Assembly: GCA_964017235.1 (NCBI GenBank)
Contig: OZ024927.1
Span: 55,743,293 to 55,807,292 of the forward strand
Source: Sabellastarte sp. h YS-2021
Taxonomy: Eukaryota; Annelida; Polychaeta; Sabellida; Sabellidae
Reading direction: 5' to 3'
DNA: 64,000 nt
Shown here: positions 25,508-62,768 of the stretch, in pieces
How the letters are laid out: the number at the start of each line of letters is the position of its first letter
How positions within the stretch are numbered: position 1 is the first letter of the stretch
Position numbers and translations under genes: made by a program
Notes under the pieces: generated by a model
What the model saw: the letters and a program-made list of their open reading frames with translations, nothing else
Database searches by the model: none
What the model was told of the DNA's origin: nothing

Positions 25508-25517
25508 AACCGACAAT

Positions 25518-28378: not shown

Positions 28379-28559
28379 TATCTCCCGCCCGGCTCGCCGG
28401 AGGGAGATTATAATTTGCACCATGTGCGTGTGTACGTGCGTGCGTGCGTGCATGCGTGTGTCACGCAGTTTTCTCTGAAACTACTACAGTTACACATTTT
28501 TGGTAAATCACAAGTCCTAATGAATTTTTTTGCTCTTCAATATTTTTGGGGTTTGGTGA

Positions 28560-30060
28560 ACTTTGGCCTACTTTTGAGTGAGTAATAGCTATTTTAGCTA
28601 ATATAATTATATGGCTTATAACTCTGAAACTATTGCATTTACAGTATTTTGTTCTGATATGTTGTTCAGCTACTTTCTCCACAGCTACAACATGGTCAGT
28701 AGTTTGGAAGTGTATCTCCATAGCTAAGTGAGTAATAGCTACTTTGTCAATTTTTAATTATAACCATAATGAGTAAATGGCTTATATCTTCATAAGTATT
28801 GCAGCTACACAATTTTGTTCCAATATGTTGTTCAGCTACTTTCTCCACAGCTACAACATGGTCAGTAGTTTGCAAGTGTATCTCCATAGCTAAGTGAGTA
28901 ATAGCTACTTTTTCAATTTTTAATGATAACCATAATGAGTAAATGGCTTATATCTTCAAAAGTATTGCAGCTACACAATTTTGTTCCAATATGTTGTTCG
29001 GCTACTTTCTCCTCTGCTACAACATGGTCATTAGTTTGGAAGTGTATCTCCGTAGCTAAGTGAGTAATAGCTACGTTTTCAGTTTTTAAATGATAACCAT
29101 AATGAGTAAATGGCTTATATCTTCAAAAGTATTGCAGCTACACAATTTTGTTCCAATATGTTGTTCAGCTACTTTCTCCACTGCTACAACATGGCCAGTG
29201 GTTTGGAAGTGTATCTCTATAGCTAAGTGAGTAATAGCTACTTTTTCAATTTTTAATGATAACCATAATGAGTAAATTGCTTATATCTTCAAAAGTATTG
29301 CAGCTACACAATTTCTCTCAAATATGTTGTTCATGTACTTTTTTGTGAACTGTAACATATTTAAGTTTCACAACTGTTGCTCAATGTACAAGTGAGTAAT
29401 GGCTACTTTATTGCTACTTTTAGTGAAAATGTGAAAAATCAGAAATATCTCTCAAACTGTAAGATATAGAGCAATTTCGAGCAAATTTTTGACCCACAGG
29501 GTAGTACTAGAGTATCCTATTGCTAAGGGGGAAAAAGTTTGGTGAATTTTGGCCTACTTTTGAGTGAGTAATAGCGCTTTTACCTAATATAATTATATGA
29601 CTTATAACTGTCAATGAGTAAATGGCTTATATCTTCAAAAGTATTGCAGCTACACAATTTTGTTCCAATATGATGTTCAGCTACTTTCTCCACAGCTACA
29701 ACATGGTCAGTAATTTGGAAGTGTATCTCCATAGCTAAGTGAGTAATAGCTACTTTTTCAATTTTTAATGATAACCATAATGAGTAAATGGCTTATATCT
29801 TCAAAAGTGTTGCAGCTACACAATTTCTCTCAAATATGTTGTTCATGTACTTTTTTGTGAACTGTAACATATTTAAGTTTCACAACTGTTGCTCAATGTA
29901 CAAGTGAGTAATGGCTACTTTATTGCTACTTTTAGTGAAAATGTGAAAAATCAGAAATATCTCTCAAACTGTAAGAGATAGAGAAATTTCGAGCAAATTT
30001 TTGAACCACAGGGTAGTACTAGAGTATCCTATGCTAAGGGGAAAATGGTTTGGTGAACTT
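28560..30060 (+). repeat. ~168-bp tandem array (family B, first array)
   Basis: GAGTAAATGGCTTATATCTT recurs near 28769, 28937 and 29104 and again after 29600. Units include TAAGTGAGTAATAGCTAC and CCACAGCTACAACATGG. The second half is a mixed block duplicated at about 29310-29560 and 29830-30060. Confidence 0.85.
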
Positions 30061-30061
30061 T

Positions 30062-33000
30062 GGCCTACTTACTCACCTCCTCAAAATGAGTAAATGCGAA
30101 TTATCTCTAAAAGTATTGCAGGTAGCCAATTTTTCTGAAATAACTCATTCACCTACTTTTGGGAGAGCTTTCACTTGGTTAAATTTCAGACGCGTAGCTA
30201 GTTACTCACCTACTCAAAATGAGTAAATGCTAATTATGTCTAAAAGTATTGCAGATAGCCAATTTTTCTCAAATAACTCATTCATATACTTTTGGAAGAG
30301 CTTTCACTTGGTGAGGTTTCAGACCCCTAGCTAATTTCTCACCTACTCAAAATGAGTAAATGCGAATTATCTCTAAAAGTATAGAAGATAGCCAATTTTT
30401 CTCAAATAACTCATTCACCTACTTTTGCGAGAGCTTTCACTTGGTGAAGTGTCGGACCTGTAGCTAATTTCTCACCTACTCAAAATGAGTAAATGCTAAA
30501 TATCTCTAAAAGTATTGCAGATAGCCAATTTTTCTCAAATAACTCATTCATTTACTTTTGGAAGAGCTTTCACATGGTGAAGTTTCAGACCCATAGCTAA
30601 TTACTCGCCTACTCAAAATGAGTAAATGCGAATTATCTCTAAAAGTATTGCAGATAGCCAATTTTTCTCAAATAACTCATTCATCTACTTTTGGAAGAGC
30701 TTTCACATGGTGAAGTTTCAGACCCATAGCTAATTACTCACCTACTCAAAATGAGTAAATGCGAATTATCTCTAAAAGTATTGCAGATAGCCAATTTTTC
30801 TCAAATAACTCATTCATCTACTTTTGGGAGAGCTTTCACTTGGTGAAGTTTCAGACCCGTAGCTAATTACTCACCTACTCAAAATGAGTAAATGCTAATT
30901 ATCTCTAAAAGTATTGCAGATAGCCAATTTTTCTCAAATAACTCATTCATCTACTTTTGGGAGAGCTTTCACTTGGTGAAGTTTCAGACCCGTAGGTAAT
31001 TACTCACCTACTCAAAATGAGTAAATGCGAATTATCTCGAAAAGTATTGCAGATAGCCAATTTTTCTCAAATAACTCATTCATCTACTTTTGGAAGAGCT
31101 TTCACATGGTGAAGTGTCAGACCCATAGCTAATTACTCGCCTACTCAAAATGAGTAAATGCGAATTATCTCTAAAAGTATTGCAGATAGCCAATTTTTCT
31201 CAAATAACTCATTCATCTACTTTTGGAAGAGCTTTCACATGGTGAAGTTTCAGACCCATAGCTAATTACTCACCTACTCAAAATGAGTAAATGCGAATTA
31301 TCTCTAAAAGTATTGCAGATAGCCAATTTTTCTCAAATAACTCATTCACCTACTTTTGGAAGAGCTTTCACTTGGTGAAGTTTCAGACCCGTAGCTAATT
31401 ACTCACCTACTCAAAATGAGTAAATGCTAATTATCTGTAAAAGTATTGCAGATAGCCAATTTTTCTCAAATAACTCATTCATCTACTTTTGGGAGAGCTT
31501 TCACTTGGTGAAGTGTCAGACCCGTAGCTAATTTCTCACCTACTCAAAATGAGTAAATGCTAAATATCTCTAAAAGCATTGCAGATAGCCAATTTTTCTC
31601 AAATAACTCATTCATTTACTTGTGGAAGAGCTTTCACATGGTGAAGTTTCAGACCCATAGCTAATTACTCGCCTACTCAAAATGAGTAAATCCGAATTAT
31701 CTCTAAAAGTATTGCAGATAGCCAATTTTTCTCAAATAACTCATTCATCTACTTTTGGAAGAGCTTTCACATGGTGAAGTTTCAGACCCATAGCTAATTA
31801 CTCACCTACTCACAATGAGTAAATGCGAATTCTCTCTAAAAGTATTGCAGATAGCCAATTTTTCTCAAATAACTCATTCATCTACTTTTGGAAGAGCTTT
31901 CACTTGGTGAAGTTTCAGACCCGTAGCCAATTACTCACCTACTCAAAATGAGTAAATGCTAATTATCTCTAAAAGTATTGCAGATAGCCAATTTTTCTCA
32001 AATAACTCATTCATCTACTTTTGGGAGAGCTTTCACTTGGTGAAGTTTCAGACCCGTAGGTAATTACTCACCTACTCAAAATGAGTAAATGCGAATTATC
32101 TCTAAAAGAATTGCAAATACCCAATTTTTCTCAAATAAGTCATTCATCTACTTTTGGGAGAGCTTTCACTTGGTGAAGTTTCACGTCCGTAGCTAATTAC
32201 TCACCTACTCAAAATGAGTAAATGCAAATTATCTCTAAAAGTATTGCAGATAGCCAATTTTTCTCAAATAACTCATTCATCTACTTTTGGAAGAGCTTTC
32301 ACATGGTGAAGTTTCAGACCCATAGCTAATTTCTCACCTACTCAAAATAAGTAAATGCGAATTATCTCTAAAAGTTAGGAGAAGCCAATTTTTCTCAAAT
32401 AACTCATTCATCTACTTTTGGGAGAGCTTTCACTTGGTGAAGTTTCAGACCTGTAGCTAATTTCTCACCCGCTCAAAATGAGTAAATACTAATTATCTCT
32501 AAAAGTATTGCAGATAGCCAATTTTTCTCAAATAACTCATTCATCTACTTTTGGAAGAGCTTTCACATTGTGAAGTTTCAGACCCGTAGCTACTTACTCG
32601 CCTACTCAAAATGAGTAAATGCGAATTCTCTCTAAAAGTATTGCAGATAGCCAATTTTTCTCAAATAACTCATTCATCTACTTTTGGAAGAGCTTTCACA
32701 TGGCAAAGTTTCAGACCCATAGGTAATAACTCACCTACTCAAAATGAGTAACTGCGAATTATCTCTAAGAGTATTGCATATAGCCAATTTTTCTCAAATA
32801 ACTCATTCACCTACTTTTGGGAGAGCTTTCACATGGTGAAGTTTCAGACCTGTAGCTAATTACTCACATACTCAAAATGAGTAACTGCGAATTATTTCTA
32901 AAAGTATTGCAGATAGCCAATTTTTCTCAAATAACTCATTCATGTACTTTTAGGAGAGCTTTCACTTGGTGAAGTTTCAGACCTGTAGCTAATTACTCAC

Positions 33001-33640
33001 CTACTCAAAATGAGTAAATGCGAATTATCTCTGAAAGTATTGCAGATAGTCAATTTTTCTGAAATAACTCATTCATCTACTTTTGGAAGAGCTGTCACAT
33101 GGTGAAGTTTCAGACCCATAGCTAATTACTCACCTACTCAAAATGAGTAAATGAGAATTATCTCTAAAAGTATTGCAGATAGCCAATTTTTCTCAAATAA
33201 CTCATTCATCTACTTTTGAAAGAGCTTTCACATGGTGAAGTTTCAGACCCGTAGGTAATTACTCACCTACTCAAAATGAGTAAATGCTAATTATCTCTAA
33301 AAGTATTGTGGGTACCCAATTTTTATCAAATAACTCATTCATCTACTTTTGGAAGAGCTTTCACATGGTGAAGTTCCAAACCTGTAGGTAATTACTCACC
33401 TACTCAAAATGAGTAAATGCGAATTATCTCTAAAAGTATTGCAGATAGCCAGTATTTTTCAAATAACTCATTTCACCTATATTTTGGGAGAACTTTTAAT
33501 TAGTGAATTTTCAGATCCATATCTAATTACTCACCTACTCAAAATGAGTAATTGCCTATTATCACTAAAAGTATTGCAGATAGCCAGTATTTCTCAAATA
33601 ACTCATTCACCTACATTTTGGAGATATTTCACATGCTAAA
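30062..33640 (+). repeat. ~135-bp satellite, about 26 units, higher-order
   Basis: Each unit has CTACTCAAAATGAGTAAATG, GATAGCCAATTTTTCTCAA and AGAGCTTTCAC-TGGTGAAG. Variant positions (GCGAATTAT versus GCTAATTAT, ACATGG versus ACTTGG, CCCATAG versus CCCGTAG) recur in sets of about four, and a rarer GCTAAATAT unit recurs eight units apart (30495 and 31559). Reading frames in it are incidental. Confidence 0.9.
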
Positions 33641-33959
33641 GTTTTTTTATGAATTATTAAAATAATTTTTAATGCATTAAAATTAATGAAATCATGCACT
33701 AAATCGATTATAACTTGAAAAGTATTGTATTTAGAGCATTTTGTTAAAATATGTTATTCACCTACTTTTTCCCACAGCAACAACATGGTGAGTAACTTGG
33801 GTGTCTATCTCAATAGATAAGTGAGTAATAGCTACTTTTGGATTTTTCACTAACTTCTATCATGAGTGAAATCACTTGTAACTTGAAAACTATTGCATTT
33901 ACACCTTCAGGTTAGTACAAAAGTGTCCTATGCAAAGGGGAAAGATTTCAATTTTCGCC

Positions 33960-34715
33960 ACTTTTGGCGGCCATCTTGGATTTTAGCGGAAAAAAATGAA
34001 AAAGTGTGAATATCTTGAAAACCATAAGAGATAGAACGATTTCGAGCGAATTTTTGACCTGCAAGGTAGTACAAGAATGTCCTGTGCAAAGGGGTAAAAT
34101 TTCAATTTTCACCACTTTTGGCAGCCATCTTGGATTTTTGCGGAAAATGGAAAAGTGTGAATATCTCTAAAACCGTAAGAGATAGAGCGATTTCAAGCGA
34201 AATTTTGAGCAGAAGGGTAGCACAAGAGTGTCCTGTGCAAAGGGGAAAAATATCGATTTTCGCCACTTTTGGCGGCCATTTTGGATTTTTGCGGAAAATA
34301 GAAAAGTGTCAATATCTCGAAAACCGTAAGAGATAGAGCGATTTCGAGCAAATTTTTGACCTGCAGGGTGGTACAAGAGTCTCCTGTGCAAAGGGGGAAA
34401 ATTTCAATTTTTGCCACTTTTGGCAGCCATCTTAGATTTTTGCGGAAAATGAAAAAGTGTCAATATCTCGAAAACCGTAAAACATGGAGCGATTTCGAGC
34501 GAATTTTTGACCCGCAGGGTGATACAAGAGTGTCCTGTCCAAAGGGGAAAAATTTCATTTTTCGCCACTTTTGGCGGCCATCTTGGATTTTTGCTGAAAA
34601 TGGAAAAGTGTCAATATCCCGAAAAGCGTAACAGATAGAGCGATTTCAAGCGAATTTTCGACCTGCAGGATGGTACAACAGTGTCCTATGCAAAGGGGAA
34701 AAATTTCAATGTAGT
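33960..34715 (+). repeat. ~150-bp array with GGCGGCCATCTTGGATTTT, five units
   Basis: The word TTTTGGCGGCCATCTTGG or near variants sits near 33963, 34118, 34266, 34418 and 34569. Units also carry CCGTAAGAGATAGAGCGATT and AAAGGGGAAAAATTTCA. Related to 4555-4960 and 40370-41790. Confidence 0.85.
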
Positions 34716-34978
34716 ATTTCTTCCCCTGCGGTACTCGGCGGGAGATACATACCGCGGCAGTGGTCTTGTATTTTAATAATTTATCTCTATTATCAGGTTT
34801 ACAGTAAACCGGAAGTACCAGTGAATGCCCATTTTGTAGACTTATGGAAGCATTTGTCCTTGACCTCTAACAAAGGAATAAAGACATGCGTTCAATTGTC
34901 AAATTTTACAGTAGATGAGTCATGCGATAAAATGAGGATAAGGAATACTTAAAAGTGCTGGCCAGGCCATTACTAGTG

Positions 34979-35429: not shown

Positions 35430-36466
35430 TGCACCACAGCCCTTAAGGGCTGTCGGGGTACTGTTTTCACCCATGGTGACCAGATGGGTGGGTGGGCGGC
35501 GGGAAAAAGTTTGTCTGGGCTGTATCTCAGAAACCGTAAGGTGTAGGAAGTTGATACTCAGTAGGGACATTGGTTAGGGGGTGTAGGTGTGCAACGTCAT
35601 GGTGTGACCTTGATTTGACCTTTGACCTTTTTGTAGTGACCTTGACCTATAAAGTCTTGTCCAGGCTATATCTTTAGAAGTGGTAAGACCTCTCCGTAGT
35701 GACCTTGAGTTTGAAAATCTTATCCGAGCTATATCTTGTAAACCATAAGGTGTAGGAAGTTGATTCTTGGTATGGACATTGGTTAGGGGGTGTAGGTGTG
35801 CTACGTTATAGTGTGACCTTGATTTGACCTTTGACCTTGACATAGTGACCTTGACCTATAAAATCTTGTCCAGGCTATATCTCAGAGACTGTAAGGTGTA
35901 GGAAGTTTATACTTGGTAGGGACATTGGTTGAGGGTTTTAGGTGTGCCACGTCATGGTGTGAGACTGATTGACCTTTGACCTTGCTGTATTGACCTTTAA
36001 AATCTTGTTGCACCTTTGGGTCAGTCTGTTGATGCAGATTAAGCACTGTTAAAATCATATTAGAATTCATTAAGAATTTCCTTTCGCAAGTTCCCATTGT
36101 AACAGATGGAATTTCATCAAGTGAGCCACAGGCTTTTCTCCAACACCACACATAAGCATTCATTGAATGTATTGCCACTTCTGTAGGCATGGGTAATATT
36201 CCAAACATCCAAAGCATAATTCGGCCATTTTTGGTTTACTGATAAGTGCTGTCATTTTATTATTGAATTGTTTTGTTTTAATACTTCATCTTTACATACA
36301 TTTCTTTTCCTTAGATATTATTTTCTCTACTTAAGCATTATTTGGACCTTAATATAACTGACACTGCTCTGAAAGTATCTTTGTACTGTTATACTACTTC
36401 TGTATCTCATGGTGTTGAAAAATATTTCCCCAGGCTGTGGGGTATAGGCATCTCTGATACTATTTT
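35430..36466 (+). mobile_element. Family C element C1, near full length
   Basis: 5' end ACCACAGCCCTTAAGGGCTG followed by TCGGGGTA. Then about three ~146-bp units, a ~450-bp non-repeated tail, GGCTGTGGGGTA (36433-36444), a hairpin GCATC-TCT-GATAC and a T run. The next bases (CTGTTTCCAGACAGTATC) are family F array sequence, so C1 sits in an F array at a T run. Confidence 0.7.
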
Positions 36467-38319: not shown

Positions 38320-38757
38320 TACCCCACAGCCCTTAAGGGTGTCCGGATGGGCAGGTGGGTGGGTGGCGGGAAAAAGTTTGTCCAGGCTGTATCTCAGAAA
38401 CCGTAAGGTGTAGAAAGTTCATACCTGGTAGGGACATTGGTTAGGGGGTGTAGGTGTGCAACGTCATGGTCTGACCTTGATTTGACCTTTGACCTTGCCG
38501 CAGTGACCTTGATCTATAAAACCTTGTCCGGGCTATATCTTGGAAACCGGAAGGTGTAGGAAGTTGTTACTTGATATGGACATTGGTTAGGGGGTGTAGG
38601 TGTGCAACGTCATGGTCTGACCTTGATTTGACCTTTGACCTTGCCGCAGTGACCTTGGTCTATAAAATCTTGTCCGGGCTATATCTTGGAAACCGGAAGG
38701 TGTAGGAAGTTGTTACTTGATATGGACATTGGTTAGGGGGTGTAGGTGTGCAATGTC
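38320..38757 (+). mobile_element. Family C element C2, 5' part only
   Basis: Begins TACCCCACAGCCCTTAAGGG and holds about two and a half ~146-bp units, the last ones almost identical. It ends abruptly in GTGCAATGTC without the 3' tail or hairpin. Confidence 0.7.
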
Positions 38758-39382: not shown

Positions 39383-39965
39383 GTGAGTAATTTTTCAATA
39401 TCATTTAAAAGTAATAATTTGGTGTTCCGCAAGGGACCCTTGTTTGTATTCAGGGGAGAAGGGAGAGAGAGGGTCTGCCGGCTCCTGCATTTTCTAATGA
39501 TTATATTTGCATAGACCTGGGAAAAATGATCAAAATTATTTTTATGTCAGCTGACTTGTCAGTCAGCTGACATTATGTCATCACTCTGCGGCGTGGGCGT
39601 ATGCCTACGCGTCCGCGTGAACAACTTCTTCTCCAAAACTACAAGGCCTAGAGACATGCTGTTTTTTTTTAAAAGATACCTTATCTATCGAGGATGAAAA
39701 ATTGTTCAAGGCATGCAAATCTGTCTGTTTGTCTGTTTGCTAGAGACATTACAAGGGGGGTACCCCCACCAAAAGTGTGAAAATTTCAACTTTTTATCAC
39801 AATTTTCTCAGTTACTATTGCAGGGATTTCTCTCATATCTTGCATATATGTACTAGGCCAGAGGTAGATTCTCTTGTGTGAGTATGAGACCTGGATCTGT
39901 CTTACTTTTTTTAAATAAATTTTTTTAATAAAATTTTTTTTTTTAATTATTTTTGCTTTTTTCGC

Positions 39966-40038
39966 CGTCCGATGTCCGATGTCCGATGTCCGTTGTCCGA
40001 TGTCCGATGTCCGGCGTCCGGCGTCCGATGTCCGGCGT
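39966..40038 (+). repeat. GTCCGAT heptamer array
   Basis: About ten copies of GTCCGAT with GTCCGGC and GTCCGTT variants, CpG-dense in an AT-rich setting. Confidence 0.9.
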
Positions 40039-40369
40039 CACGCATGGTTTCCGCTCATTTAAAGGAAAAGTATTAGAGCTATTGTCACCAAATTTGGTAT
40101 GCAGGCTTATTGGGTCAGTAGCTTGCTTGGGATTGCTTTTGGCTGTTGTACCTCTTTTGCTTACTGAGTAATACTTAAGTACAGCTATTTTCAGTACCCA
40201 TTGGTTTCCGTGCATTTAAGCCAAAATAATTAAAGATATTTTACTACAATTTTGAATACAAGATTGTTATGTCCATAGCTCGCTTGGTATTGCATTTGGG
40301 ACTGATAGCTTTGTCAGTACATGAGTAATAGCCATTTAGGTACTTCATTGTGTATTTTCAGTACTACTT

Positions 40370-41790
40370 TTGAGTAATTTGCTTCTATCTCCTTAACCGT
40401 GCGAGATAGAGCGATTTCGGCAAAATTTTCGACCCGCAGGGTATCTCAGGAGTGTACTCTTTGCAATTTTCAAAAAATTTTCCCCTCCCCAAAAATGGCG
40501 GCCATTTTGAATTTTCGAATTTTTGCCAAAAATGGCAAAACACAAATTTCCTTCTATCTCCTTAACCGTGCGAGATAGAGCGATTTCGTCGAAATTTTCA
40601 ACCCGCAGGGTATCTGAGGAGTGTACTCTTTGCAATTTTCAAAAAATTTTCCCCTCCCCAAAAATGGCGGCCATTTTGAATTTTCGAATTTTTGCCAAAA
40701 ATGGCAAAACACAAATTTGCTTCTATCTCCTTAACCGTGCGAGATAGAGCGATTTCATCGAAATTTTCGATCCACAGGGGATCTAAGGAATGCAATCTTT
40801 GCAATTTTCCAAAAATTTTCCCCTCCCCAAAAATGGCGGCCATTTTGAATTTTCGAATTTTTGCCAAAAATGGCAAAACACAAATTTGCTTCTATCTCCT
40901 TAACCGTGCGAGATAGAGCGATTTCGGCAAAATTTTCGACGCACAGGGTATCTAAGCAATCCAATCATTGCAATTTTCAAAAAATTTTCCCCTCCCCAAA
41001 AATGGCGGCCATTTTGAATTTTCGAATTTTTGCCAAAAATGGCAAAACACAAATTTGCTTCTATCTCCTTAACCGTGCGAGATAGAGCGATTTCGTCGAA
41101 ATTTTCGACCCACAGGGTATCTAAGGAATGTAATCTTTGCAATTTTCAAAAAATTTTCCCCTCCCCAAAAATGGCGGCCATTTTGAATTTTCGAAGTTTT
41201 GCCAAAAATGGCAAAACACAAATTTCCTTCTATCTCCTTAACCATGCGAGATAGAGCGATTTCGTCAAAATTTTCGACCCACAGGGTATCTGAGCATTGT
41301 ACTCTTGGCAATTTAAAAAAAAATTTCCCCTCCCCTAAAATGGCGGCCATTTTGAATTTTCAAATTTTTGCCAAAAATGGCAAAACACAAATTTGCTTCT
41401 ATCTCCTTAACCGTGCGAGATAGAGCGATTTCGTCGAAATTTTCGACCCACAGGGTATCTAAGGAATGTAATATTTGCAATTTTCAAAAAATTTTCCCCT
41501 CCCCAAAAATGGCAGCCATTTTGAATTTTCGAATTTTTGCCCAAAATGGAAAAACACAAACTGGCCTTAACCGTGCAAAATAGAGTTATTTTGTTGAAAT
41601 TTTCGACCCATAGGGTATCTAAGAAATGTACTCTTGGCAATTTTCAAAAAAATTTCCTTTTCCCAATAATGGCGGCCATTTTGAATTTTCAAATTTTTGC
41701 CAAAAATAGAAAAACAGGAATTTGCTTCTATCTTCTTAACCGTGCAAGATAGAGTGATTTCGTCAAAATTTTCAACCCAACCAATGCAAA
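40370..41790 (+). repeat. 169-bp satellite, about eight units
   Basis: The period is 169 bp almost exactly (for example AAAAATGGCAAAACACAAAT near 40529, 40698, 40867, 41036, 41205 and 41374). Units carry CTTAACCGTGCGAGATAGAG, TTTTCGACCCACAGGGTATC and the palindromic AAATGGCGGCCATTT. The last unit is shortened. Frames of about 74 codons recur at the same period on both strands and are repeat by-products. Confidence 0.93.
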
Positions 41791-41994
41791 AAGGCATGAA
41801 GCTGAAATAATTTACATCTACACTAACAAATATTTAAGCATCATTGATATATTTTACAAATGAAACAGGGTCTTGTAAGACTACTGTACAATTTGGGCAA
41901 AAGGTTCATGGGTGGACATTACACATGATAATGTGTGTTCTTCTATGCTATCCTGTTTCTATTCGCATCTACTATCAACAGGGCGGCCTATTTC

Positions 41995-44160
41995 TAGTTT
42001 TTAATGCATTAAAATGCATGAAATCATGCACTAAATCACTTATAACTTCAAAAGTGTTGCATTTACAGCATTTTGTGAAAATATGTTGTTCAGCTACTTT
42101 TTTCATAGCTACAATATGGTGAGTAAGTTGGGTGTCTGTCTTAATAGCTAAGTGAGTAATAGCTACTTTTGGGCTTTTCAGTAACTTCCAGTATGAGTAA
42201 AATCACTTGTAACTTAAAAACTATTGCATTTAGAGAATATGTTATTCAGCTACTTTTGGGTCAGCTATAACATAGTGAAATTTCAGACCTGTAGCTCATG
42301 GCATAGCTGAGTAATAGCTACTTTTAGGTTATCACTCTTGAGTAAATCGCTTATAACTTGAAAACTATTGCATTTAGAGAATTTTGTATAAATATGTTAT
42401 TCAGCTACTTTTGGGTCAGCTATAACATAGTAAAATTTCAGACCTGTAGCTCATGGCATAGCTGAGTAATAGCTACTTTTAGGTTCTCACTGTTGAGTAA
42501 ATCACTTATAACTTGAAAAGTGTTGCATTTAGAGCATTTTGTTAAAATATGTTACTCAGCTACTTTTTTCATAGCTACAATATGGTGAGTAAGTTGGGTG
42601 TCTGTCTCAATAGCTAAGTGAGTAATAGCTACTTTTGGGCTTTTCAGTAACTTCCATCATGAGTAAAATCACTTGTAACTTAAAAACTATTGCATTTAGA
42701 GAATTTCGTATAAATATGTTATTCAGCTACTTTTGGGCCAGCTATAACATAGTAAAATTTCAGACCTGTAGCTCATGGCATAGCTGAGTAATAGCTACTT
42801 TTAGGTTATCACTGTTGAGTAAATCACTTATAACTTGAAAACTATTGCATTTAGAGTATTTTGTTTCAATATGTTATTCACCTATTTTGGGGTCAGCTAT
42901 AACATAGTGAAGTTTCAGACCTGTGGCTCATTTCATAGCTGAGTAATAGCTACTTTGAAGTTCTCACTGTTGAGTAAATCAGTTTTAATTGGAAAACTAT
43001 TGCATTTGCAGAAATTTGTGCAAATATGTTATTCAGCTACTTTTGGGTCAGCTATAGCATAGTGAAAATATAGACCTATAGCTCATGGCACAACTGAGCA
43101 ATAGCTATTCTCAGGTACTGACTGTTGAGTAAATCAGCTATAACTTGAAAAATATTGCATTTGGAGTATTTTGTTAAAATATATTGTTCACCTACTTTTG
43201 GGTCAGCTATAACATAGTGAAATTACAGACCTATAGCTCATGGCATAGCGGAGCAATAGCTATTTTCAGGTTCTCACTATTGAGTAAATCAGTTGTAGCT
43301 TGAAAACTATTGCATTTACAGTAGTTTGCTTAAATATGTTGTTCACCTACTTTTGGGTTAGCTATAACTAGTATAGGGATCGAGAGCTATATTGAGGATC
43401 GATATCGAATGAAAATTTAGGGTGGTGGATCGATCGATATTTCAATATCGGGACCGTTAACGTAAGCCGTGGGCGATAATACAGGTTCTTTGAAAACGTG
43501 CACATATTAATTCACAAAATTATCAAAACATATTATTTATGCACCAAAAATATATTTCTACAATATAAAATAAACAACAAACGAACAAAAATCCAATCAA
43601 ATAAGAGTTTTCATGCTTTTTTGTGTACTAGCTGTCAGGTTTTGTTTCTTTTCCGTGAAACCGGAAGTTGTCACTGACAATGTAAACAAAGATGGCACCA
43701 GACTTAAACCCATTTATTTCGCTTGTAAATGTGCTTTTTAAGGCGTTTATATAATAAATATTTATTGAAGCAGTAAAATTACTCTGTTTATTTTATTTTT
43801 GTCTGTTTCTCATATGTGGTTTCGATATTAAAATTCTGGTAGTATGTGTCGATATCGGCAGTTCTGTGGGATGATCGATCGATATTGAAAGATCGAGCAC
43901 CAATCCCTACACTAGCTATAACATAGTAAAATTTCAGACATGTAGCTCATTGCATAGCTGAGTAATAGTTCCTTTGAGGTTCTCACTGTTGAGTAAATCA
44001 GTTGTAACTTGAAAACTATTACATTTAGAGTAATTTGTTAAATATTTTATTCACAGAATTTTTGGTCAGCTATAACATAGTGAAATTGCAGACCTCTATG
44101 TCATGGCATAGCTGAGCAATAGCTACTTTCAGGTTCTCACTGTTGAGTAAATCATTGTAT
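41995..44160 (+). repeat. ~155-bp array (family A array)
   Basis: Units contain GAGTAAATCACTTATAACTT, AAACTATTGCATTTAGAG, CTACTTTTGGGTCAGCTATA and AGCTGAGTAATAGCTAC. Same array as in A3 (60440-61680) and at the window end. Recognisably related to the 135-bp array of family B. Confidence 0.88.
43369..43912. mobile_element. ~544-bp MITE inserted in the family A array
   Basis: Left GTATAGGGATCGAG and right, inverted, GTGTAGGGATTGGTG. Subterminal ATCGATCGATATT words occur near both ends. TAGCTATAAC at 43359-43368 recurs at 43913-43922 and may be a 10-bp target duplication, but the array itself repeats this word, so the duplication is uncertain. Confidence 0.65.
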
Positions 44161-50430: not shown

Positions 50431-51377
50431 TACCCCTTAAGGGCTGGGCTGTCGGGGTATTGTTTTCATCTATGGTTTCCGGATGGGCGGGCAGGCAGGT
50501 GGCGGTAAAAAGTTTGTCCGGGCTGTATCTCAGAAACCGTAAGGTGTAGGAAAGTTGATAATTGGTAGGGACATTGGTTAGGGGGTGTAGGTGTGCAACA
50601 TCATGGTCTGACCTTGATTGGACCTTTGACCTTGCCCCAGTGACCTTGAGTTTGAAAATCTTGTCCGGACTATATCTCGGAAACCGTAAGGTGTAGGAAG
50701 TTGATACTTGGTAGGGACATTGGTTAGGGGGTGTAGGTGTGCAACGTCATTGTCTGACCTTGATTTGACTTTTGACCTTGCTGTAGTGACCTTGACCTAT
50801 AAAATCTTGTCCGGGCTATATCACGGAAACCGTAAGGTGTAGGAAGTTGATGCTTGGTAGGGACATTGGTTAGGGGTTGTAAGTGTGCAGCATCATGGTG
50901 TGAACTTGATTGGACCTTTGACCTTGTTGTAGCGACCTTGACCTTTAAAATCTTGTTGCACCTTTGGGTCTGTCTTTTGATACAGATTAAGCACTGTTAA
51001 AGTTACATTAGAATTCATTAAGAATTTTACTTTTACAACTTCCCGTTGTAACAGATGGAATTTCATCAAGTGAGCCACAGATTTTGCTCCAACACCACAC
51101 ATAAGCATTCATTGAATGTATTACCACTTCTGTATGCATGGTAATATTCAAAACATCTAAACCATAATTCGGCCATGCCAGATGTAGATAAAGAGTACAT
51201 GCATTATCTTTCTCTTAGACATTATTTTCTCTATTTAAACATTGTTTGGACCTTTATCTAACTGACAGTGCTCTGAAAGTATCCTGAACTTTGTACTGAT
51301 ACAGTACTTCTATATCTCATGGTGTTAAAAATATTTCCCTAGGCTGTGGGGTACGGGCATCTCTGATGCTATTTTTT
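50431..51377 (+). mobile_element. Family C element C3, complete, in intron 2
   Basis: 5' TACCCCTTAAGGGC and GGGCTGTCGGGGTA, about three ~146-bp units, the family tail, GGCTGTGGGGTA (51342-51353), hairpin GCATC-TCT-GATGC (51357-51369) and a T run. Ends are clear on both sides. Confidence 0.75.
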
Positions 51378-51528: not shown

Positions 51529-53907
51529 GTATCCCCGGATTCAGTACGGTCACGCCGCCGCCGCAGAGATTTCCTTTTGGATGCGATAACTTAAAAAATA
51601 TTTTAGTTAGAACTTCAAATTTGGTATGTGGGTATATATGGGCAATGCCACGAACGCTATTGTTTTGTGACCTTGACCTTCAATCTCAAGGTCACTGGTG
51701 GCCTCTTAAAGGTCAGATTTTGGCCATTTTTTCACTTTTTGGCCCAGTTCTCCTATACAGAAAGTCAGATCATCCTATGGCTGGTATATATAATACATAT
51801 ATATGTCCTGTAAGCATGCAGAAATTTGACCTTGAAGCTCTTCATTGAAGGTCATCCACTGACCGCCAAAGTACCTGACCGAGGGTCATTTTTGGCCTTT
51901 TTGGAGATATTTTCAGACTTAATGCTGACTATATTGCATGGAAACTATTGAAAATGGCTTTGGAGGTTGAGTACATGATGGACTTCTACCATCCAGGCTT
52001 ACTGGTTACAGATCTTCATTTAAGGTCATCCACTGACCGCCAAAGTACCTGACCAAGGGTCATTTTTGGCAAATTTGGAGATATTTTCACACTTAATGCT
52101 GACTACATTGCATGGAAACTATTGAAAATGGCTTTGGAGGTTGAGTACATGATGGAGTACCAGCATCCAGGCTTACCGGTTACAGATCTTCATTTAAGGT
52201 CATCCACTGACCGCCAAAGTACCTGACCGAGGGTCATTTTTGGCCCTCTATTTGTTTGTTTGTTTGTGAACAAGATAACTCAAAAACTGACAGATGGATT
52301 TTGATAAAATTTTCAGGATATGTCCAAAATGGTAAAAGGAAGATATGATTAAATTTTGGGAGTGATCCGGATCACTGTCTGGATCTTCTGGATCCATGAA
52401 ATTTAATTTTTAAAGACAGATAACTCAAAAACTTATGGGTGCATTTTGATGAAATTTTCAGGAAATGTCCTTAATGGGACAAGGAACAAGTGATTAGATT
52501 TTGGGAGTGATCTGGATCACTGTCTGGATCATCCGGATCCAGGCTGCCAGATGTGTTTGTGTACAATATAGCTCACAAACTTATAGATGGATTTTGATGA
52601 AATTTTCAGGATATGTCTGAAAAGGTAAAAGGATGAAATGGTTGAATTTTGGAAGTGATCCGAATCACTATATGGATCTTCTGGATCCATGAAATGTAAT
52701 TTTTAAAGACAGATACCTCAAAAAATTATGGATGGATTGTGATGACATTTTCAGCAAATGACCTAAATGGTACAAGGAACAAGTGTTTACATTTTTGGAG
52801 TGATCTGGATCATCTGGATCCAGGCTGCAATATAATTTTAGGATGAATTTTGATGATATTTTTAGGATATGTTACAAATGGTAAAGGAAGAAGTGGTAAA
52901 AGGAAGAAATGGTTCAATTTTGCGAGTGATCTGGACCACTATCTGGATCTTCTGGATCCATGAAATATAATTTTAAAGACAAATAGCTCAAAAAGTCATG
53001 GGTGGATTTTGATGAAATTTTCAGGAAATGTCCTAAATGGGACAAGGAACAAGCGATTAGATTTTGGGAGTGATCTGGATCATCTGGATCCAGGCTGCCA
53101 GATGTGTTTATGTACAAGATAAATCAAAAACTTATGGACGGATTTTGATGAAATTTTCAGGATATGTCTGAAAAGGTAAAAGGATGAAATGATTGAATTT
53201 TGTAAGTGATCCGGATCACTATATGGATCTTCTGGATCCATGAAATGTAATTTTTAAAGACAGATACCGCAAAAAGTTATAGATGGATTGTTTCAGCAAA
53301 TGGCCTAAATGGTACAAGGAACAAGTGATTAAATTTTTGGAGTGATCTGGATCACTGTCTGGATCATCTGGATCCAGGCTGCCACATAATCTTGGGATGG
53401 ACTTTGATATTTTTAGGATATGTTACAAATGGTAAAAGGAAGAAGTGGTAAAAGGAAGAAATGATTCAATTTTGCAAGTGATCTGGACCACTATCTGGAT
53501 CTTCTGGATCCAAGAAATGTAATTTTTAAAGTCAAATAGCTCAAAAAGTCATGGATGGATTTTTATGAAATTTTCAGGAAATGTCTTAAATGGGACAAAG
53601 AACAAGTGATTAGTTTTTGGGAGTAATCTGGATCACTGTCTGGATCATGTGGATCCAGGCTGCCAGATGTGTTTGTGTACAAGATAACTAAAAAACTTAT
53701 GGACGGATTTTGATGAAATTTTTAGAATATGTCTGAAAAGGTAATTTTTAAAGACAGATATAACTACTGATTAGCTTTTGGGAGTAATCTGGTACTATGG
53801 AGAATCCTGACCTGGTGCTCCAGGAAACAGGCTCAAGACCGACATATTCACGCCTTAACTATGTCCCGTCCGGGGATACACTGTGTCGAGACGCAATCTC
53901 TAGTTAT
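51529..53907 (+). mobile_element. Family D element D1, 2.4 kb, in intron 2
   Basis: 5' GTATCCCCGGA (51529-51539), 3' TCCGGGGATAC (53869-53879), then hairpin TGTGTC-GA-GACGCA (one wobble pair). The leader has CACGCCGCCGCCGCAGAG, then two ~190-bp repeats (51860-52240), then an array of ~280-bp units. TTAATATGTAG is present on both flanks (51509-51519 and 53907-53917). Confidence 0.68.
52250..53760 (+). repeat. ~280-bp units in a ~560-bp alternating order
   Basis: GATCTGGATC and CTGGATCATCTGGATCCAGG recur. The version followed by CTGCCAGATGTGTTT (52545, 53092, 53658) alternates with a version followed by ATAAT (52825, 53376), giving a two-unit higher-order period of about 550-565 bp. Confidence 0.85.
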
Positions 53908-54283: not shown

Positions 54284-54291
54284 ATTAAACT

Positions 54292-55874: not shown

Positions 55875-56440
55875 AACCCCAGCCCATAAAGGCTGGGGTT
55901 ATAGTCATCCCCTGCGCCGTCCAGGTGGCGGCGGCGGACATAAAGCTTGTGGGTGTTCCACAGCCTAAACCTCTTCATGGATTTTCACCAAATTTTCAGG
56001 GGATGTTTACCCCAAGAGGATCTAGAGCTGATTAGGTTTTGGGGTGTATCTGGTAACAACTGTTGCCATGGCAACACTTTAAAGATTTTCAAGTTCGAAA
56101 TTTTGTGGTTGTTCCACAGACAAAACCCCTGCACGGATTTTCACCAAATTTTCAGAATATGTTTACCCCAAAGGGATCTAGAGCTGATTAGGTTTTGGGG
56201 GGTATCTGGTAATAACTGTTGCCATGGCAGCAATTGTAAGATTTTCGGGTCTTAAAGTTTGTGGGTGTTCCACAGCCTAAACCCATGCATGGATTTTCAC
56301 CAAATTTTCAGCAAATGTTAACTCCAAGAGGATTTACAGAAAAAAGCTGATTAGGTTTTGGGGGGTATCCAGTGGCAACTGTTGCCATGCCAACACTTTT
56401 AAACCTTTCTGGTGGTAAAGTTTGTTCTAAAATCTTTGAT
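55875..56440 (+). mobile_element. Family E element, 5' end and three ~160-bp units
   Basis: Stem AACCCCAGCC / GGCTGGGGTT (55875-55900, 10 bp), then a GGCGGCGGCGG leader, then three units with GGGTGTTCCACAGCC, CATGGATTTTCACCAAATTT and AACTGTTGCCATGGCAAC. A matching 3' end may be at 62732-62768. Confidence 0.7.
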
Positions 56441-56639
56441 GTTTTCTGTAACCTAAAATATTGCAGCTAGCTTCATCAGATTTGCACAAATTGTAAATGG
56501 ATAGGAAAGTTTGCCTTATTTTGGAAACAAAATGGCCACCATATCACATCTTTAATGCCAAATAGGAGGGTCATCATATCAAAAAGGCCTTATATCTCCC
56601 TTATAATTAATTAAGTGGCCTGTCAGGGGCACTTATTTG
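56441..56639 (+). repeat. Shared module with AAAATGGCCACCAT
   Basis: Resembles 2900-3110 and 44200-44340 (TTGCAGCTAGCTTCATCAGA, a short AAxATGGCC-box, then TTATATCTCCCTTATAATT), the leader of the 148-bp array, here without the array. Confidence 0.6.
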
Positions 56640-57201
56640 TTTTCACGTAGGTTCGACTGATCGCTGCCGCTGCCACAGCATTATGGTCTCCCTTGAATAA
56701 CTTCTTGGGTTTTCAATTTTTCTTTCCTACTTATCTTTCTTTAAAACTATAGGGGTGGGAAAAATGTTTGGGATACTTTGCGGAGACCTAAAGCTTTACT
56801 TAAGGTAACCTTAAGCATTTCTCAAAAACACCCTGTCATCGCGTTTTAAAACAAACCTTACACACCTGTGCTATAAAATTTATCAGGTACATTCTAGACC
56901 TAAATCCGCAGGTCAGGAAGGATTTTCTGATCAACCAGACCATAGATGCCTGAATGGGAGGCGTTTTGTTAGAATAACTTATTCAGCTACTTTTTGGTAA
57001 TCTTTCACATGCTGAAGTTTTAGCCCTGTATCCGCAATCTTAAGGTCACCTTTATGTCAAAAAGGGGGTTTTAGCCCTCCAGCTCACTTAGTTTTTGACT
57101 TTTTTTCAACCAAAGTTGGGATATATATTAAGATTTACCAAAGGATTATCCTGACTTTATGGTGACCTTAAACTGTTAATAAAATTGTAGCTATGCCCCC
57201 C

Positions 57202-57232
<31 letters not shown>

Positions 57233-57602
57233 ACACACACAAAGTCATAAAATTGGAATAAAGCCGTCTGGCCCCTTTCTTTTTCCATATCTAACATATA
57301 TTGATATTGAAGTAGATCAAAAGAAGACTCTTACGATTTAAATATTAATGATGTTATGGCCATCTTAAACTTAAAATGTAGGGTTTTTCAGCGCTAAGGT
57401 CAATTAATGTTTAATTTTTTAAAGTAAAACTTGGCACGTTTATAAAGGTTGTCAGAAGGGACATTCTCATTTTATGGTTACCTTAAAGTCGCAATATGAA
57501 TGAAGTTATGGTCACCTTGCAGTGAAAAAAGGAAGTTTTTAGCCTCCAGCTATCTTATTGTTCAACTGACCTGAGCTAAACTTTATGCATTTATAAAGGA
57601 TG
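56640..57602 (+). repeat. Array I with leader, left part
   Basis: A leader with CGCTGCCGCTGCC (56660) leads into array I units matching 1-330 (GATGTTATGGCCATCTTAAA, AAAGGAAGTTTTTAGCC, TTTATAAAGGATGA). It ends abruptly at 57602 against family C sequence. Confidence 0.7.
57196..57241 (+). repeat. Poly-C then CA microsatellite
   Basis: A C run of more than 20 bases directly followed by (AC)n, within array I sequence. Confidence 0.95.
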
Positions 57603-59526
57603 AGTTTGAAAATCTTGTCCGGGCAATATCTCGGCAACCATAAGGTGTAGGAAGTTGATACTTGGCAGGGACATTAGTTAGGGGTTGTAGGTGTGCAACG
57701 TCATGGTCTGACCTTGATTTGACCTTTGACCTTGCTGTAGTGACCTTGACCTTTAAAATCTTGTCCGGGCTATATCTCAGAAACCGTAAGGTGTAGGAAG
57801 TTGATACTTGGTAGGGACATTGGTTAGGGGGGTGTAGGTGTGCAATGTCATGGTCTGACCTTGATTTGACCTTTGACCTTGCTATAGTGACCTTGACCTA
57901 TAAAATCTTGTCCAGGCTATATCTCGGAAACCGTAAGATGTAGGAAGTTGATACTCAGTAGGAACATTGGTTAGGAGTTGTAGGTGTCCAACATCATGGT
58001 CTGACCTTGATTTGACCTTACCGTAGTGACCTTGACCTATAAAATCTTGTCCAGGCTATATCTCGGAAACCGTAAGGTGTAGGAAGTTGATACTTAGTAG
58101 GAACATTGGTTATGAGTTGTAGGTATGCAACATCATGGTCTGACCTTGATTTGACCTTTGACCTTGCCGTAGTGACCTTGACCTATAAAACCTTGTCCGG
58201 GCTATATCGCAGCAACTGTAAGGTGTAGGAAGTTGATACTTGGTAGGGACATTGGTTAGGGGGTGTAGGTGTGCAACGTCATGGTCTGACCTTGATTTGA
58301 CCTTTGACCTTGCTATAGTGACCTTGACCTATAAAATCTTGTCCAGGCTATATCTCGGAAACCGTAAGATGTAGGAAGTTGATACTCAGTAGGAACATTG
58401 GTTAGGAGTTGTAGGTGTCCAACATCATGGTCTGACCTTGATTTGACCTTACCGTAGTGACCTTGACCTATAAAATCTTGTCCGGGCTATATCTCAGCAA
58501 CTGTAAGGTGTAGGAAGTTGATACTTGGTAGGGACATTGGTAGGGGGGGGTTGTAGATGTGCAACGTCATAGTGTGACCTTGATTTGACCTTTGACCCTT
58601 GCCGTAGTGATCTTGACCTATAAAATCTTGTCTGGGCTATATTTCGGAAACTGTGAGGTGTAGGAAGCTGATACTTGGTGAGGACATTGGTTGGGGGGTA
58701 GTAGGTGTGCAACGTCATGGTGTGACCTTGATTTGACCTTTGTACTTGCCGTAGTGAACTTGACCTATAATACCTGGTCTGGGCTATATCTTTGAAACCG
58801 TAAGAGGTGTAGGAAGTTGATATTTGTTAGGGACATTGGTTAGGGGGTGTATGTGTGCTATGTCATGTGACCTTGATTTGACCTTTGACCTTGCTGTAGC
58901 GACCTTGACCTATAAATCTTGTCCAGGTTATATCTCAGAGACTGTAAGGTGTAGGAAGTTTATACTTGGTAGGGACATTGGTTGAGGGTTTTAGGTGTAC
59001 CACGTCATGGTGTAACACTGATTGACCTTTGCCATTGCTGTATTAACCTTTAAAATCTTGTTGCACCTTTGGGTCTGTCTGTTGATGCAGATTAAGTACT
59101 GTTAAAGTCATATTAGAATTGATTAAGAATTTCCTTTTGCAAGTTCCCATTGTAACAGATGGAATTTCATCAAGTGAGCCACAGGCTTTTCTCCAACACC
59201 ACACATAAGCATTCATTGAATGTATTGCCACTTCTGTATGCATGGGTAATATTCAAAACATCCAAACCATAATTCGGCCATTTTTGGTTTACTGATAAAT
59301 GCTGTCATTTTATTATTGAATTATCTTGTTTTAATACTTCATCTTTATATACATTTCTTTTCCTTAGATATTATTTTCTCTACTTAAGCATTATTTGGAC
59401 CTTAATATAACTTACACTGCTCTGAAAGTATCTTGAACTTTGTACTGTTACACTACTTCTATATCTCATGGTGTTGAAAAATATTTCCCCAGGCTGTGGG
59501 GTACGGGCATCTCGGATGCTATTTTT
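57603..59526 (+). mobile_element. Family C element C4, 5'-deleted, about ten units
   Basis: Starts in mid-unit (GTTTGAAAATCTTGTCCGGG), with about ten ~146-bp units, then the family tail, GGCTGTGGGGTA (59492-59503), hairpin GCATC-TCG-GATGC and CTATTTTT. A three-unit block is repeated nearly exactly (57880-58035 again at 58310-58465, about 430 bp apart). Confidence 0.78.
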
Positions 59527-60112
59527 AATCTCCAGCTATTGTATTGTTCGGCTGACCTCAGTTAAATTTTGCACACTTATTAAATATGAAAATAGGGACA
59601 TTCTTATTTTCTTTCCACCTTAGAGTTCCAATACAAGCACAGTCATGGCCATCTTGAAGTAAAACTGAGGGTTTTCAGCTCCCAGCTGACTTACAGTTCA
59701 ATGACATCATTTCAACTTGACACATTTATTAAGTTTAAGGAAGACTTCTAATGACCTTTTTGTTTAGAATTCCTATATTTAAGAGACTTTGGCCAACTTA
59801 ACATAATAATCGTATAGTTTTTGCTCCCACCTCATTTATTTTAAGACTTTTTAAAACCACACCTGCCACATGTATACTTAAAACAAGACTTCTGTTATCT
59901 TGCAAAGCTAACCCCCTAGTGTTTTTGAAGTTATGGCATCTTCAAAGAAAAAAAATGAAGTATTTAGCATGCAGTGATGTGGTTATTAATGTATTGCAAG
60001 CTGATCAGTGTTCATATAATATAAATTCCCAATTTTAGGCACATTAAAAAAAATCCCACATTCGTCTGATTCTATTCTTGTGGAATTGTGTGGATATGAC
60101 TTTTCCTTTTTA
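59527..60112 (+). repeat. Array I, right part
   Basis: AATCTCCAGCTATTGTATTG onward matches 411-600 and 6950-7030. The last part (59880-60112) is unassigned. Confidence 0.65.
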
Positions 60113-61777
60113 TGTCAGCTGACTTGTCAAGTTTGTTACTCTGAACAACTTCTCCTAAACTACAAGACCCAGAGACATGCTGTTTTTTTTAAAAGATGCC
60201 TTAACTATTGAGGATGAAAAATTGTTCAAGGCATGCAGATCTGTTTGTTTGTCTGTGCCCCAGAGCCATTACAAGCCAGGTACCCCCATCCAAAGTGTGA
60301 AAATTTCAAAACTTTATCGCAATTTTCTCATTCACTATTGCAGGGATTTTTCTCATATCTTGCATATATGTACCAGGCCACTAGTAGATTACCTTGTGTG
60401 AGTATTAGACCTGGATCTGTCTTAATTAATTTTTATGAATTTTTAAAATTTTTAGTACATTAAAATTCATGAAATCATGCACGAAATCACTTATAATTTG
60501 AAAAGTATTACATTTAGAGCATTTTGTCAAAATTTGTTATTCAGCTACTTTTTTCATAGCTACAACATTGTGAGTAAATTGAGTGTCTGCCCCAATAGCT
60601 AAGTGAGTAATAGTTACTTTCTGACTTTTCAGTACCTCCTGTAAAGAGTAAAATCACCTATAACTTGAAAACTATTGCATATACAGAATTTTGTGTAAAT
60701 CTGTTATTCAGCTACTTTTGGGTCAGCTACAACATAGTAAAATTTCAGACCTGTAGCTCATTGCATAGCTTACTAATAGCTACGTTGAGGTTATAACTGT
60801 TGAGTAAATCAGTTGTAACGTGAAAACTATTGCATTTAGAGTAGTTTGTTTAGATATGTTATTCACCTAATTTTTGGTCAGCTATAACATAGTAAAATTG
60901 CAGACCTGTAGCTCATTACATAACTGAGCAATAGCTATTTTCAGGTTCTCACTGTTGAGTAAATCAGTTGTAACTTGAAAGCTATTCTATTTACAGTATT
61001 TTGCTTAAATATGTTATTATTCACCCACTTTTGGGTCAGCTATAATATAGTGAAATTGCAGACCTGTGGCTCATGGCATAGCTGAGCAATAGCCATTTTC
61101 AGGTTCTCACTGTTGAGTAAATCAGTTTGTAACTCGAAAACTATTGCATTTACAGTATTTTGTTTAAATATGTTGTTCACCTTCTTTTGGGTCAGCTATA
61201 AGATAGTGAAATTACAGACCTGTAGCTCATTGCATAGCTGAGTAATAGCTACTTTGAGGTTATCACTGTTGAGTAAATCAGTTGTAACTTGAAAACTATT
61301 GCATTTAGAGTAGTTTGTTTAAATATACTATTCACCTAATTTTTTGTCAGCTATAACATAGTGAAATTGCAGACCTGTAGCTCATTACATAGCTGAGCAA
61401 TAGCTATTTTCAGCTTTTCACTGTTGAGTAAATCAGTTGTAACTCAGAAACTGTTGCATTTACAGTTATTTGGTTAAATATGTTGTTCACCTACTTTTGG
61501 GTCAGCTATAAGATAGTGAAATTGCAGACCTGTAGCTCATGGCATAGCTCAGCAATAGCTACTTTCGGGTTCTTGCTGTTGAGTAAATAAGTTGTAACTT
61601 GAAAACTATTGCATTTACAGTATTTTGTTTAAATATGTTGTTCACCTACTTTTGGGTCAACCCTAACATAGTAGCTCATTTAGCTTCATGTAGCTCATTA
61701 CTTCTTGTACTTCTACTCTGAATTTCAAAACTCACAGTCAGCTGACACAGAGCCCGTTAATGGGCACTGATTGCTTG
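60113..61777 (+). mobile_element. Family A element A3, complete, in intron 4
   Basis: 5' TGTCAGCTGACTTG, leader, ~155-bp array (about eight units, 60440-61680), 3' AGTCAGCTGACA (61736-61747), hairpin GCCCGTTAATGGGC, then CACTGATTGCTTGTT. The uninterrupted leader shows what A2 looked like before its 2.1-kb insertion. Confidence 0.75.
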
Positions 61778-62639
61778 TTGGAGAACAAAGCTTTAATTAA
61801 TTCAGCTTTTGTTTAGCAGCAGGAGTTGTTGATCTAGCTACTTATTCGATACACTATGTAAATTGGTCAAATGTATAGACTTGACTTCTTTCTGAAGATA
61901 AGATGACTGGAAAAAACACTTTCTCATAAACAGTTATTCTTGGTCAGTATTTTATGTATCTCCAGCTAATTGAAAATGAAATGAAATAAATGAGTTCTCT
62001 GAGAGAACTGTTTTGTCTGTTTTGAGAGAATGGAAAAGCCTTAATAATATGTAAAAACCTTGGGCTTTCATGATATTCAGATATAGATTCATGTTTAAAT
62101 TAAAGAAGTTACATCTGACAACATGACTTTGTGTATTTTTTTTACAATGGAACAATAAAGGATTTCACAAATACAATTATCTTAAGCATATTTATCTTAT
62201 AAAAGTATGAAATAGCAATGAATTTTCAGAGGCATAAAATGCCTCAAATATATACAACATATGAATGTCCCTATCTATAGCCAATTATAGTTTACTACAG
62301 TGTATCTTTATCATTACATATTTATTTACAGCAAAAATGATATATTCTTTTCATATAATATACCACTCTACAAAACACAATAAAGCTCACATTATGTTTA
62401 CAGTCTAATACTGCAACTGATACAGTTTTTAGATAATCCACTTTTCCATTAGATACAAAACGCAGTAAAGCTTACCTTCTCCTTACAGTCTCATACCACA
62501 ACTACTACAGCTTTATTAACTCAAGTCTCCATCCGGGCTGCTCGTTGTTGTCAGCAAAATCCTTTTTCTAGTTGTTTCTTGGGCTTCAAAATATGAAAAC
62601 TATTTGTAAGAAATCATGGCCCGTGAATCTTTTGTAGAA
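61778..62639. other. Intron 4, no feature
   Basis: AT-rich. TCTGTTTTGAGAGAATGGAA near 62017 recurs at about 8477. Confidence 0.45.
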
Positions 62640-62768
62640 CATCTTGTGGGTTCTCTATACTTCTTACAGCAGAAGTTGTTCCTAAGATTTTCCCAAATCT
62701 CATTGTTGTTGGCCATTTTGCTGTACCTGCAGGCTGGGGTTCTCGTCTGCCGAGGCTGGCTATTTTAG
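62640..62768 (+). mobile_element. Family E 3' end
   Basis: GGCTGGGGTT (62732-62741) is the inverted partner of the family E 5' word. It is followed by TCTCGTCTGCCGAGGCTGGC, which can fold (one mismatch, GA loop), and then TATTTT, closely parallel to the family C end. Confidence 0.5.

Follow-up and report, generated by a model that had tools for sequence, protein, structure and literature searches.

Five families of satellite-carrying elements with the anatomy of non-autonomous Helentrons in a sabellid annelid genome

We have analysed a stretch of 64,000 nucleotides from the polychaete Sabellastarte sp. h YS-2021 (contig OZ024927.1, here C1, positions 55743293-55807292; hereafter the window), in a genome of 1.786 Gb. 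The window contains members of five families of element, A to E, each carrying tandem satellite arrays between conserved termini. These are very probably non-autonomous Helentrons (Helentron-associated non-autonomous elements, HINEs). They have subterminal inverted repeats (subTIRs), a 5' hairpin and insertion into runs of T with no target duplication beyond T/A in 27 end pairs, and the genome contains Helentron genes. Their anatomy equals that of the Cg_HINE elements of Pacific oyster (PMC7492417), and we have therefore filed them as HINEs.

Terminal structure and abundance of the five families

An earlier sequence-only reading of the window described a short word at the 5' end of each family that is repeated in inverse form near the 3' end. 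All five words are present at those places with their inverses, and all are in large or clear excess genome-wide. We counted exact matches on the forward and reverse strands of the whole genome, using each word read backwards as the control. The counts (forward/reverse, with the control following) were 16043/16123 against 45/39 for A, 11288/11130 against 24/34 for B, 16528/16499 against 38/40 for C, 2600/2649 against 154/169 for D and 5478/5227 against 1574/1599 for E. With the strands pooled the excess is 16 to about 420 times for A to D, and 3.4 times for the 10-base E word. Exact words of A, B and C number 22,000 to 33,000 per family. The E word alone is unspecific and its counts are inflated, because an unrelated repeat also contains it; this repeat accounts for seven of 30 fetched E loci (L069, L082, L085, L086, L087, L096 and L098, at about position 1501).

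Copies were sampled as 98 loci of 3 kb (8 for A and 30 each for B, D and E), the earliest along contig C1; merging them with the window gave 84 segments totalling 331,831 bases. C ends were taken from the window and from C copies inside loci fetched for other families. Aligning the fetched copies, as the sequence-only reading had proposed, gave exact common termini for each family. The order of parts is a T-run, the 5' word with its inverse copy (forming a hairpin), the core, the inverse word, a 3' palindrome, a CT-type end and T's. Following the T-run, A begins [A]TGTCAGCTGACT..AGTCAGCTGACA, B begins TATCTCCCGCC..GGGAGATTAT, C begins TACCCCACAGCC.., D begins GTATCCCCGGACGAAAGTCGGGGATAC and E begins AACCCCAGCCCATAAAGGCTGGGGTT.

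The strong hairpin at the 5' end, overlooked in the sequence-only reading, is found in every family. The word pairs with an inverse copy a few bases further on, and this is visible also in the exact-word matches. Thirty-five of 38 distinct 5' ends fold better than shuffled sequences (p ≤ 0.05 by folding energy), a count that is biased upward because the end patterns included the hairpin sequence and because hits with fewer than three T's in the six outer bases, most of which represent the same hairpin read in reverse, were left out. With the same bias toward the hairpin in the patterns, a palindromic subTIR or adjacent inverted repeat (IR) is present at the 5' end, and inverted repeats of the length usual in HINEs, about 11-15 bp, lie near both ends of A to E. 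The termini are asymmetric, the 5' hairpin lying at the edge and the 3' word about 18-30 bases inside.

The 3' ends are more varied. A and B finish with CTTG and C and E with CTA followed by T's, as had been read from the window, but D ends CTAG-TT. A stem-loop after the inverse word had been ascribed to all families. Folding energy is better than that of shuffles (p ≤ 0.05) in 12 of 39 distinct ends, comprising A 3/4, B 1/12, C 3/6, D 2/10 and E 3/7, and in a test of raw stem length A and C alone lie clearly above the shuffle mean, with E below it. For A and for half of the C ends the stem-loop is thus firm; it is modest for D and E and weak for B, where folding energy does not support it as a strong universal mark.

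Insertion targets and empty sites

Pairing each end with the nearest end of the same family and strand within 9 kb gave 27 end pairs with 26 distinct 3' ends, one D 3' end being paired with two 5' ends. A D element with 5' ends at C1:1845923 and C1:1846297 has a single 3' end at 1848772; plant Helitrons amplified from the 5' side similarly have two 5' ends and one 3' end (PMC12628747).

Exact matches between the flanks adjacent to the two ends were 0 bp in eight pairs, 2 bp in ten, 3 bp in five and 5 bp in four. All consist of T/A, and mismatched pairs give a similar spread. In the 27 pairs there is no target duplication beyond T/A, and so none typical of a cut-and-paste transposase, for which a check had been proposed. 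T follows the 3' end directly in 6/6 A, 17/21 B and 17/17 D ends; the 9/9 for both C and E is demanded by the end pattern and so provides no evidence.

Paralogous empty sites were found for four of the 27 pairs, one each for D, E, B and A. The clearest is that of a D copy, matched at two places with 90-92% identity over 240 bp. The empty site reads CTTGTTTTAATAC and the occupied site CTTGTT/GTATCC...CTAG/TTTTAATAC (slashes mark the element boundaries), so that the sole change at the junction is two extra T's. The occupied E site reads AAGTTTTT/AACC...GGCTA/TTTTTGAG and its satellite paralogues AAGTTTTTGAG, with a number of T's that varies among the paralogues. The empty sites of E, B and A have lower identity than that of D and lie within satellite or element paralogues. 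The extra T's at the junction may be the element's own or a duplication of T; the two are indistinguishable here, as in PMC4067079. Insertion into T-rich or TT targets without duplication beyond T/A, as expected of HINEs, is seen in 27 pairs, four of them with empty sites.

The elements are dispersed to unrelated sites, some within satellite units of other families. Of the flanks tested, 110 in all, 23 align over at least 60 bases with a satellite unit from the window; 22 of these match a unit in an element of another family and one an unassigned array. Twelve of these 23 flanks belong to B 3' ends that adjoin one and the same 169-bp unit. Several of these ends have the same flank, and as they are not independent they were excluded from the empty-site evidence; their pattern suggests a composite whose parts spread together. 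B 3' ends at C1:2391043, 2398774, 2406365 and 2414096 (L024-L027) are spaced by 7.6-7.7 kb and share one flank, which looks like a tandem duplication. Long frames are common to three of these four loci.

Helentron genes and the movement of the families

The genome contains a Helentron-type Rep with a downstream PIF1 helicase. The Rep profile PF14214 has 24 matches. Motif 2 reads RGSPH in all four loci read of these 24, and S in this motif is diagnostic for Helentrons (PMC4067079). PIF1 has 65 matches; when all were compared, 17 of the 24 Rep matches had PIF1 within 8 kb on the same strand. A single open frame of 2245 amino acids (aa) contains both Rep and PIF1 at C3:168674076. Not every such copy is whole, since the C2 copy has Rep and the first part of PIF1 in a 1783-aa frame with the remaining PIF1 in another, and the C11 copy diverges just past the Rep motif. 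The stretch upstream of the 2245-aa frame occurs at five places with about 100% identity. A possible element end 2.1-2.5 kb upstream of the Rep motif, suggested by paired 40-base probes in two copies, proved to be a 123-base difference in an N-terminal repeat. The copies are still homologous 3.4 kb upstream, and all five places also have the 230 bases that follow (192/230 at one of them). Genes of a candidate autonomous Rep/helicase element, of the kind that the sequence-only reading had proposed to look for, are thus present; no autonomous element bearing the ends of one of the families was seen in the stretches read.

Ten of the PIF1 matches belong to open frames that are all exactly 823 aa long, and no listed PF14214 match is found within 20 kb of them. 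Judged from sequence, these may be a dispersed helicase family without an obvious Rep.

Family B provides a link between these termini and Helentron coding sequence. A B element on C1 in minus orientation has its 3' end at 3183308 and its 5' end beyond the stretch read; its satellites are reversed, all 115 of 115 alignments to the B element of the window being on the minus strand. It holds a plus-strand frame of 300 aa in which a helicase C-terminus is fused to an apurinic/apyrimidinic (AP) endonuclease, a fusion characteristic of Helentron machinery. The endonuclease part matches PF14529 (1.2e-8) and PF03372 (4.8e-7), and the helicase part UvrD_C_2 at 1.1e-4, under the cut-off. A protein search with the frame gave at least 136 matches (of 5028 candidates, 133 were scored). 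The best copies apart from the source have 94-97% identity, and most of these have the same start and a 300-aa frame. Five further junctions were read. All share with the first the B 3' terminus, the short satellite stretch and the point of fusion, and they differ in their outer flanks, so that the junction is alike in 6/6 loci read. Used as a query genome-wide, the junction gave 40 places scored of 1427 candidates. Of the 39 beyond the source, 37 start at the B terminus (query positions 53-58); the starts of the other two are at 42 and 48. The fragment is antisense to the B element, lies beside its 3' end, and starts in the short stretch of B satellite. Between copies, nucleotide identity is 98-99% in the mostly coding stretch; for the non-coding flank it is 97-98% (from 41 matches, source included, of which 40 are full length). 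This likeness of frame and flank indicates recent spread with no sign of selection on the 300-aa frame; purifying selection is unsupported. A divergent relative of the helicase-endonuclease with 44-47% identity, at C8:99663287-99664942 (-), has a PIF1 match just upstream and is probably another Helentron remnant.

A number of observations weigh against classing A to E as HINEs. At the upstream edge read of the candidate autonomous Rep-PIF1 element, where the copies are still homologous, the outermost 270 bases contain none of the five words within three mismatches. Empty sites were found for only four of 27 pairs and for no C copy, and those of A and B have 70-78% identity with junctions that cannot be aligned exactly, base by base. 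Just 1/12 B, 2/10 D and 3/7 E ends have a 3' palindrome that passes the energy test. The endonuclease fragment in B is antisense, an orientation that the gene does not have in most Helentrons, and each of the 136 listed endonuclease places is more than 20 kb from all 24 Rep places.

What, then, moves these elements? Palindromic ends might suggest foldback elements or miniature inverted-repeat transposable elements (MITEs) moved by a cut-and-paste transposase, and look-alike elements have been named MITEs (in the title of a clam paper, and in PMC4067079). Yet no pair shows a target duplication of fixed length or anything beyond T/A, the termini are asymmetric without symmetric terminal inverted repeats at the edges, and B-ended copies contain a helicase-endonuclease. 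This explanation is therefore very unlikely. Canonical Helitrons share with A to E the rolling-circle type, a 3' palindrome and a CT-type 3' end, but have a 5' TC, a 3' CTRR and insertion between A and T (PMC4067079). The ends of A to E do not conform to these features, with CTTG, CTAG or CTA plus T's, targets in T-runs and subTIRs, and the Rep in the genome has RGSPH; this class was rejected. The non-autonomous Helentron is left as the reading that best accounts for the data. On that reading, Rep/helicase from rarer autonomous Helentrons would nick at the 5' end of the element, the helicase would peel off one strand, transfer would stop at the 3' inverse word and palindrome, and the freed strand would be joined within a T-run. 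Two partners are available to the 5' word for pairing, its neighbouring inverse and the 3' inverse word; any role for that choice is speculation.

The sequence-only reading went further, and proposed that one shared rolling-circle machinery, in effect a single Helentron transposase acting in trans, mobilises all five families. The common order of parts, the T-run targets, the similar CT-type 3' ends and the relatedness of the A and B satellites despite unrelated termini all favor this. But the five words and palindromes differ between families, as do the last bases, of which there are three kinds, and among the four Rep loci sampled, one differs from the other three, which are near-identical. 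The last indicates more than one Helentron lineage, and most likely more than one serves the five families. Several lineages that each move HINEs of their own account for the data no less well than one shared machinery. While the data neither require nor exclude a single transposase, we consider it improbable.

The origin of the B fragment bears on the same question. It could be a chance capture of a piece of a foreign Helentron, which would say nothing about what moves B. The antisense orientation, the start within B satellite, the absence of any sign of constraint on the frame (in both the protein and nucleotide comparisons above) and the distance of every listed copy from a Rep match are all consistent with capture, and we give this a little less than an even chance. 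On the other side, one Helentron of Drosophila is described whose gene runs in minus orientation (PMC4067079), so that derivation of the fragment by internal deletion of such an element is plausible, and about as simple. A broader scheme is possible but doubtful: B would descend from a minus-oriented Helentron, a derivative holding the helicase C-terminus and endonuclease would have spread to dozens of sites or more, and termini and satellite cores would re-assort, making the ends interchangeable vehicles for satellites.

Satellite cargo and relation to known elements

The copies in the window and the Rep and PIF1 places are collected in Table 1. In the window copies, the variable cores between the conserved termini are satellite arrays, in keeping with the proposal that satellites are carried as cargo. 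Internal tandem repeats or microsatellite, common in HINEs though not obligatory, are present in these copies. The accompanying claim that the cores lack any protein gene fails for those B-ended copies elsewhere that contain the helicase-endonuclease frame. Satellite units were assigned to families from where they lie in the window, in which elements are often nested. With that assignment, the satellites of A are related to those of B (z = 21-30 among the 155-, 166- and 133-bp units, z = 23 between the 169-bp units of A and the 151-bp units of B) in spite of unrelated termini, and those of D and E are weakly related (z = 10). The span of the outer E element holds a C 3' end and both ends of an A element, so that part of its satellite is not E's own. 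Slippage or recombination would make the internal arrays vary, and the elements would carry them along as cargo.

Table 1. Elements in the window, and Rep-PIF1 and PIF1 places in the genome. Positions are those of the window unless prefixed by a contig.
Feature	Position	Strand	Remarks
B element, whole	28379..34768	+	5' hairpin 28379-28411, then GTGC-type microsatellite
B element, arrays	28611-29853, 30065-33644, 33903-34710	+	166, 133 and 151 bp units, respectively
B element, 3' inverse word and terminus	34737-34768	+	ends CTTG
C element, short	35430..36462	+	mutated 5' word TGCACCACAGCC; array 35697-35984 (146 bp)
C short element, 3' terminus	36433-36462	+	CTA then TTTTT
C 5' end and start of 146-bp array	38320..38757	+	3' partner uncertain; next same-strand C 3' end 51342-51371
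A element	39545..45193	+	5' hairpin at 39545
A element, arrays	40376-41779, 42032-43373, 44345-44918	+	169, 155 and 143 bp units, respectively
A element, 3' terminus	45152-45193	+	hairpin, CTTG, then TTTT
C 3' terminus	51342..51371	+	inverse word, palindrome, CTA + T's
D element	51529..53903	+	5' inverse copy lost; arrays 51839-53744
D element, 3' terminus	53869-53903	+	CTAG then TT
E element, outer	55875..62762	+	5' hairpin 55875-55900; array 55942-56395 (156 bp)
E element, 3' terminus	62732-62762	+	CTA + TTTT; span interrupted by C and A material
C-type array and C 3' terminus	57609..59521	+	146-bp array 57609-59050, 3' terminus 59492-59521; in E span; 5' end unrecognised
A element in E span	60113..61777	+	word at 60113 without 5' inverse copy; array 60646-61672 (155 bp)
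A element in E span, 3' terminus	61736-61777	+	
Rep-PIF1 family, five places	C3:168674076, C2:137362922, C4:41573032, C11:69208214, C14:75442154		
PIF1 frames of 823 aa, first five	C1:113476517, C6:117777059, C3:20529343, C3:25501411, C3:84895671		
PIF1 frames of 823 aa, other five	C5:69618124, C2:36698461, C14:73758711, C3:131960696, C4:10208618		

Partly decayed A and C termini are also present at window positions 7035, 11614, 19299-19328 and about 63264-63290. Open frames at 1074-2366 (-) and 26068-26949 (-) match a reverse transcriptase (RVT_1, 1.5e-32) and a MULE transposase-like protein (PF10551, 1.2e-15; PF21056, 3.3e-18).

The plan of A to E is that of Cg_HINE (PMC7492417): a 5' subTIR of 11-12 bp, a complementary IR, microsatellite, a satellite-like core mostly of 140-180 bp units, a 3' subTIR, a palindrome, a TT or T-rich target without duplication, and several families of unrelated sequence. 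The genome and sequences are different here, and the related satellites within the unrelated termini of A and B, and the helicase-endonuclease fragment in B-ended copies, have no counterpart in the available part of that paper. Helentrons and HINEs of mite, Culex and Drosophila (PMC4067079) also share subTIRs, a 3' palindrome, a T-rich target and a variable number of T's at the boundary with A to E, and their Rep, PIF1 and AP endonuclease genes have counterparts in this genome, but no autonomous partner with ends matching A to E was seen in the stretches read. For the clam Mercenaria mercenaria 4-5% rolling-circle and about 10% satellite repeats are reported, with no HINE structure in the part of that paper available (PMC8905726). 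Among the titles and abstract openings covered by our literature search, none named families A to E or endonuclease copies like those of B.

Satellite-carrying HINEs are therefore of a kind already described in Pacific oyster, of which A to E are new members. The dispersed arrays of 130-170 bp satellite are cargo of what are very probably rolling-circle elements, which extends the oyster result. With the ends of these abundant families exactly defined, it becomes possible to annotate such arrays as transposons and to test how they move, and the B-ended copies, together with the near-identical Rep-helicase family at five places, provide direct handles on which enzyme moves which family.

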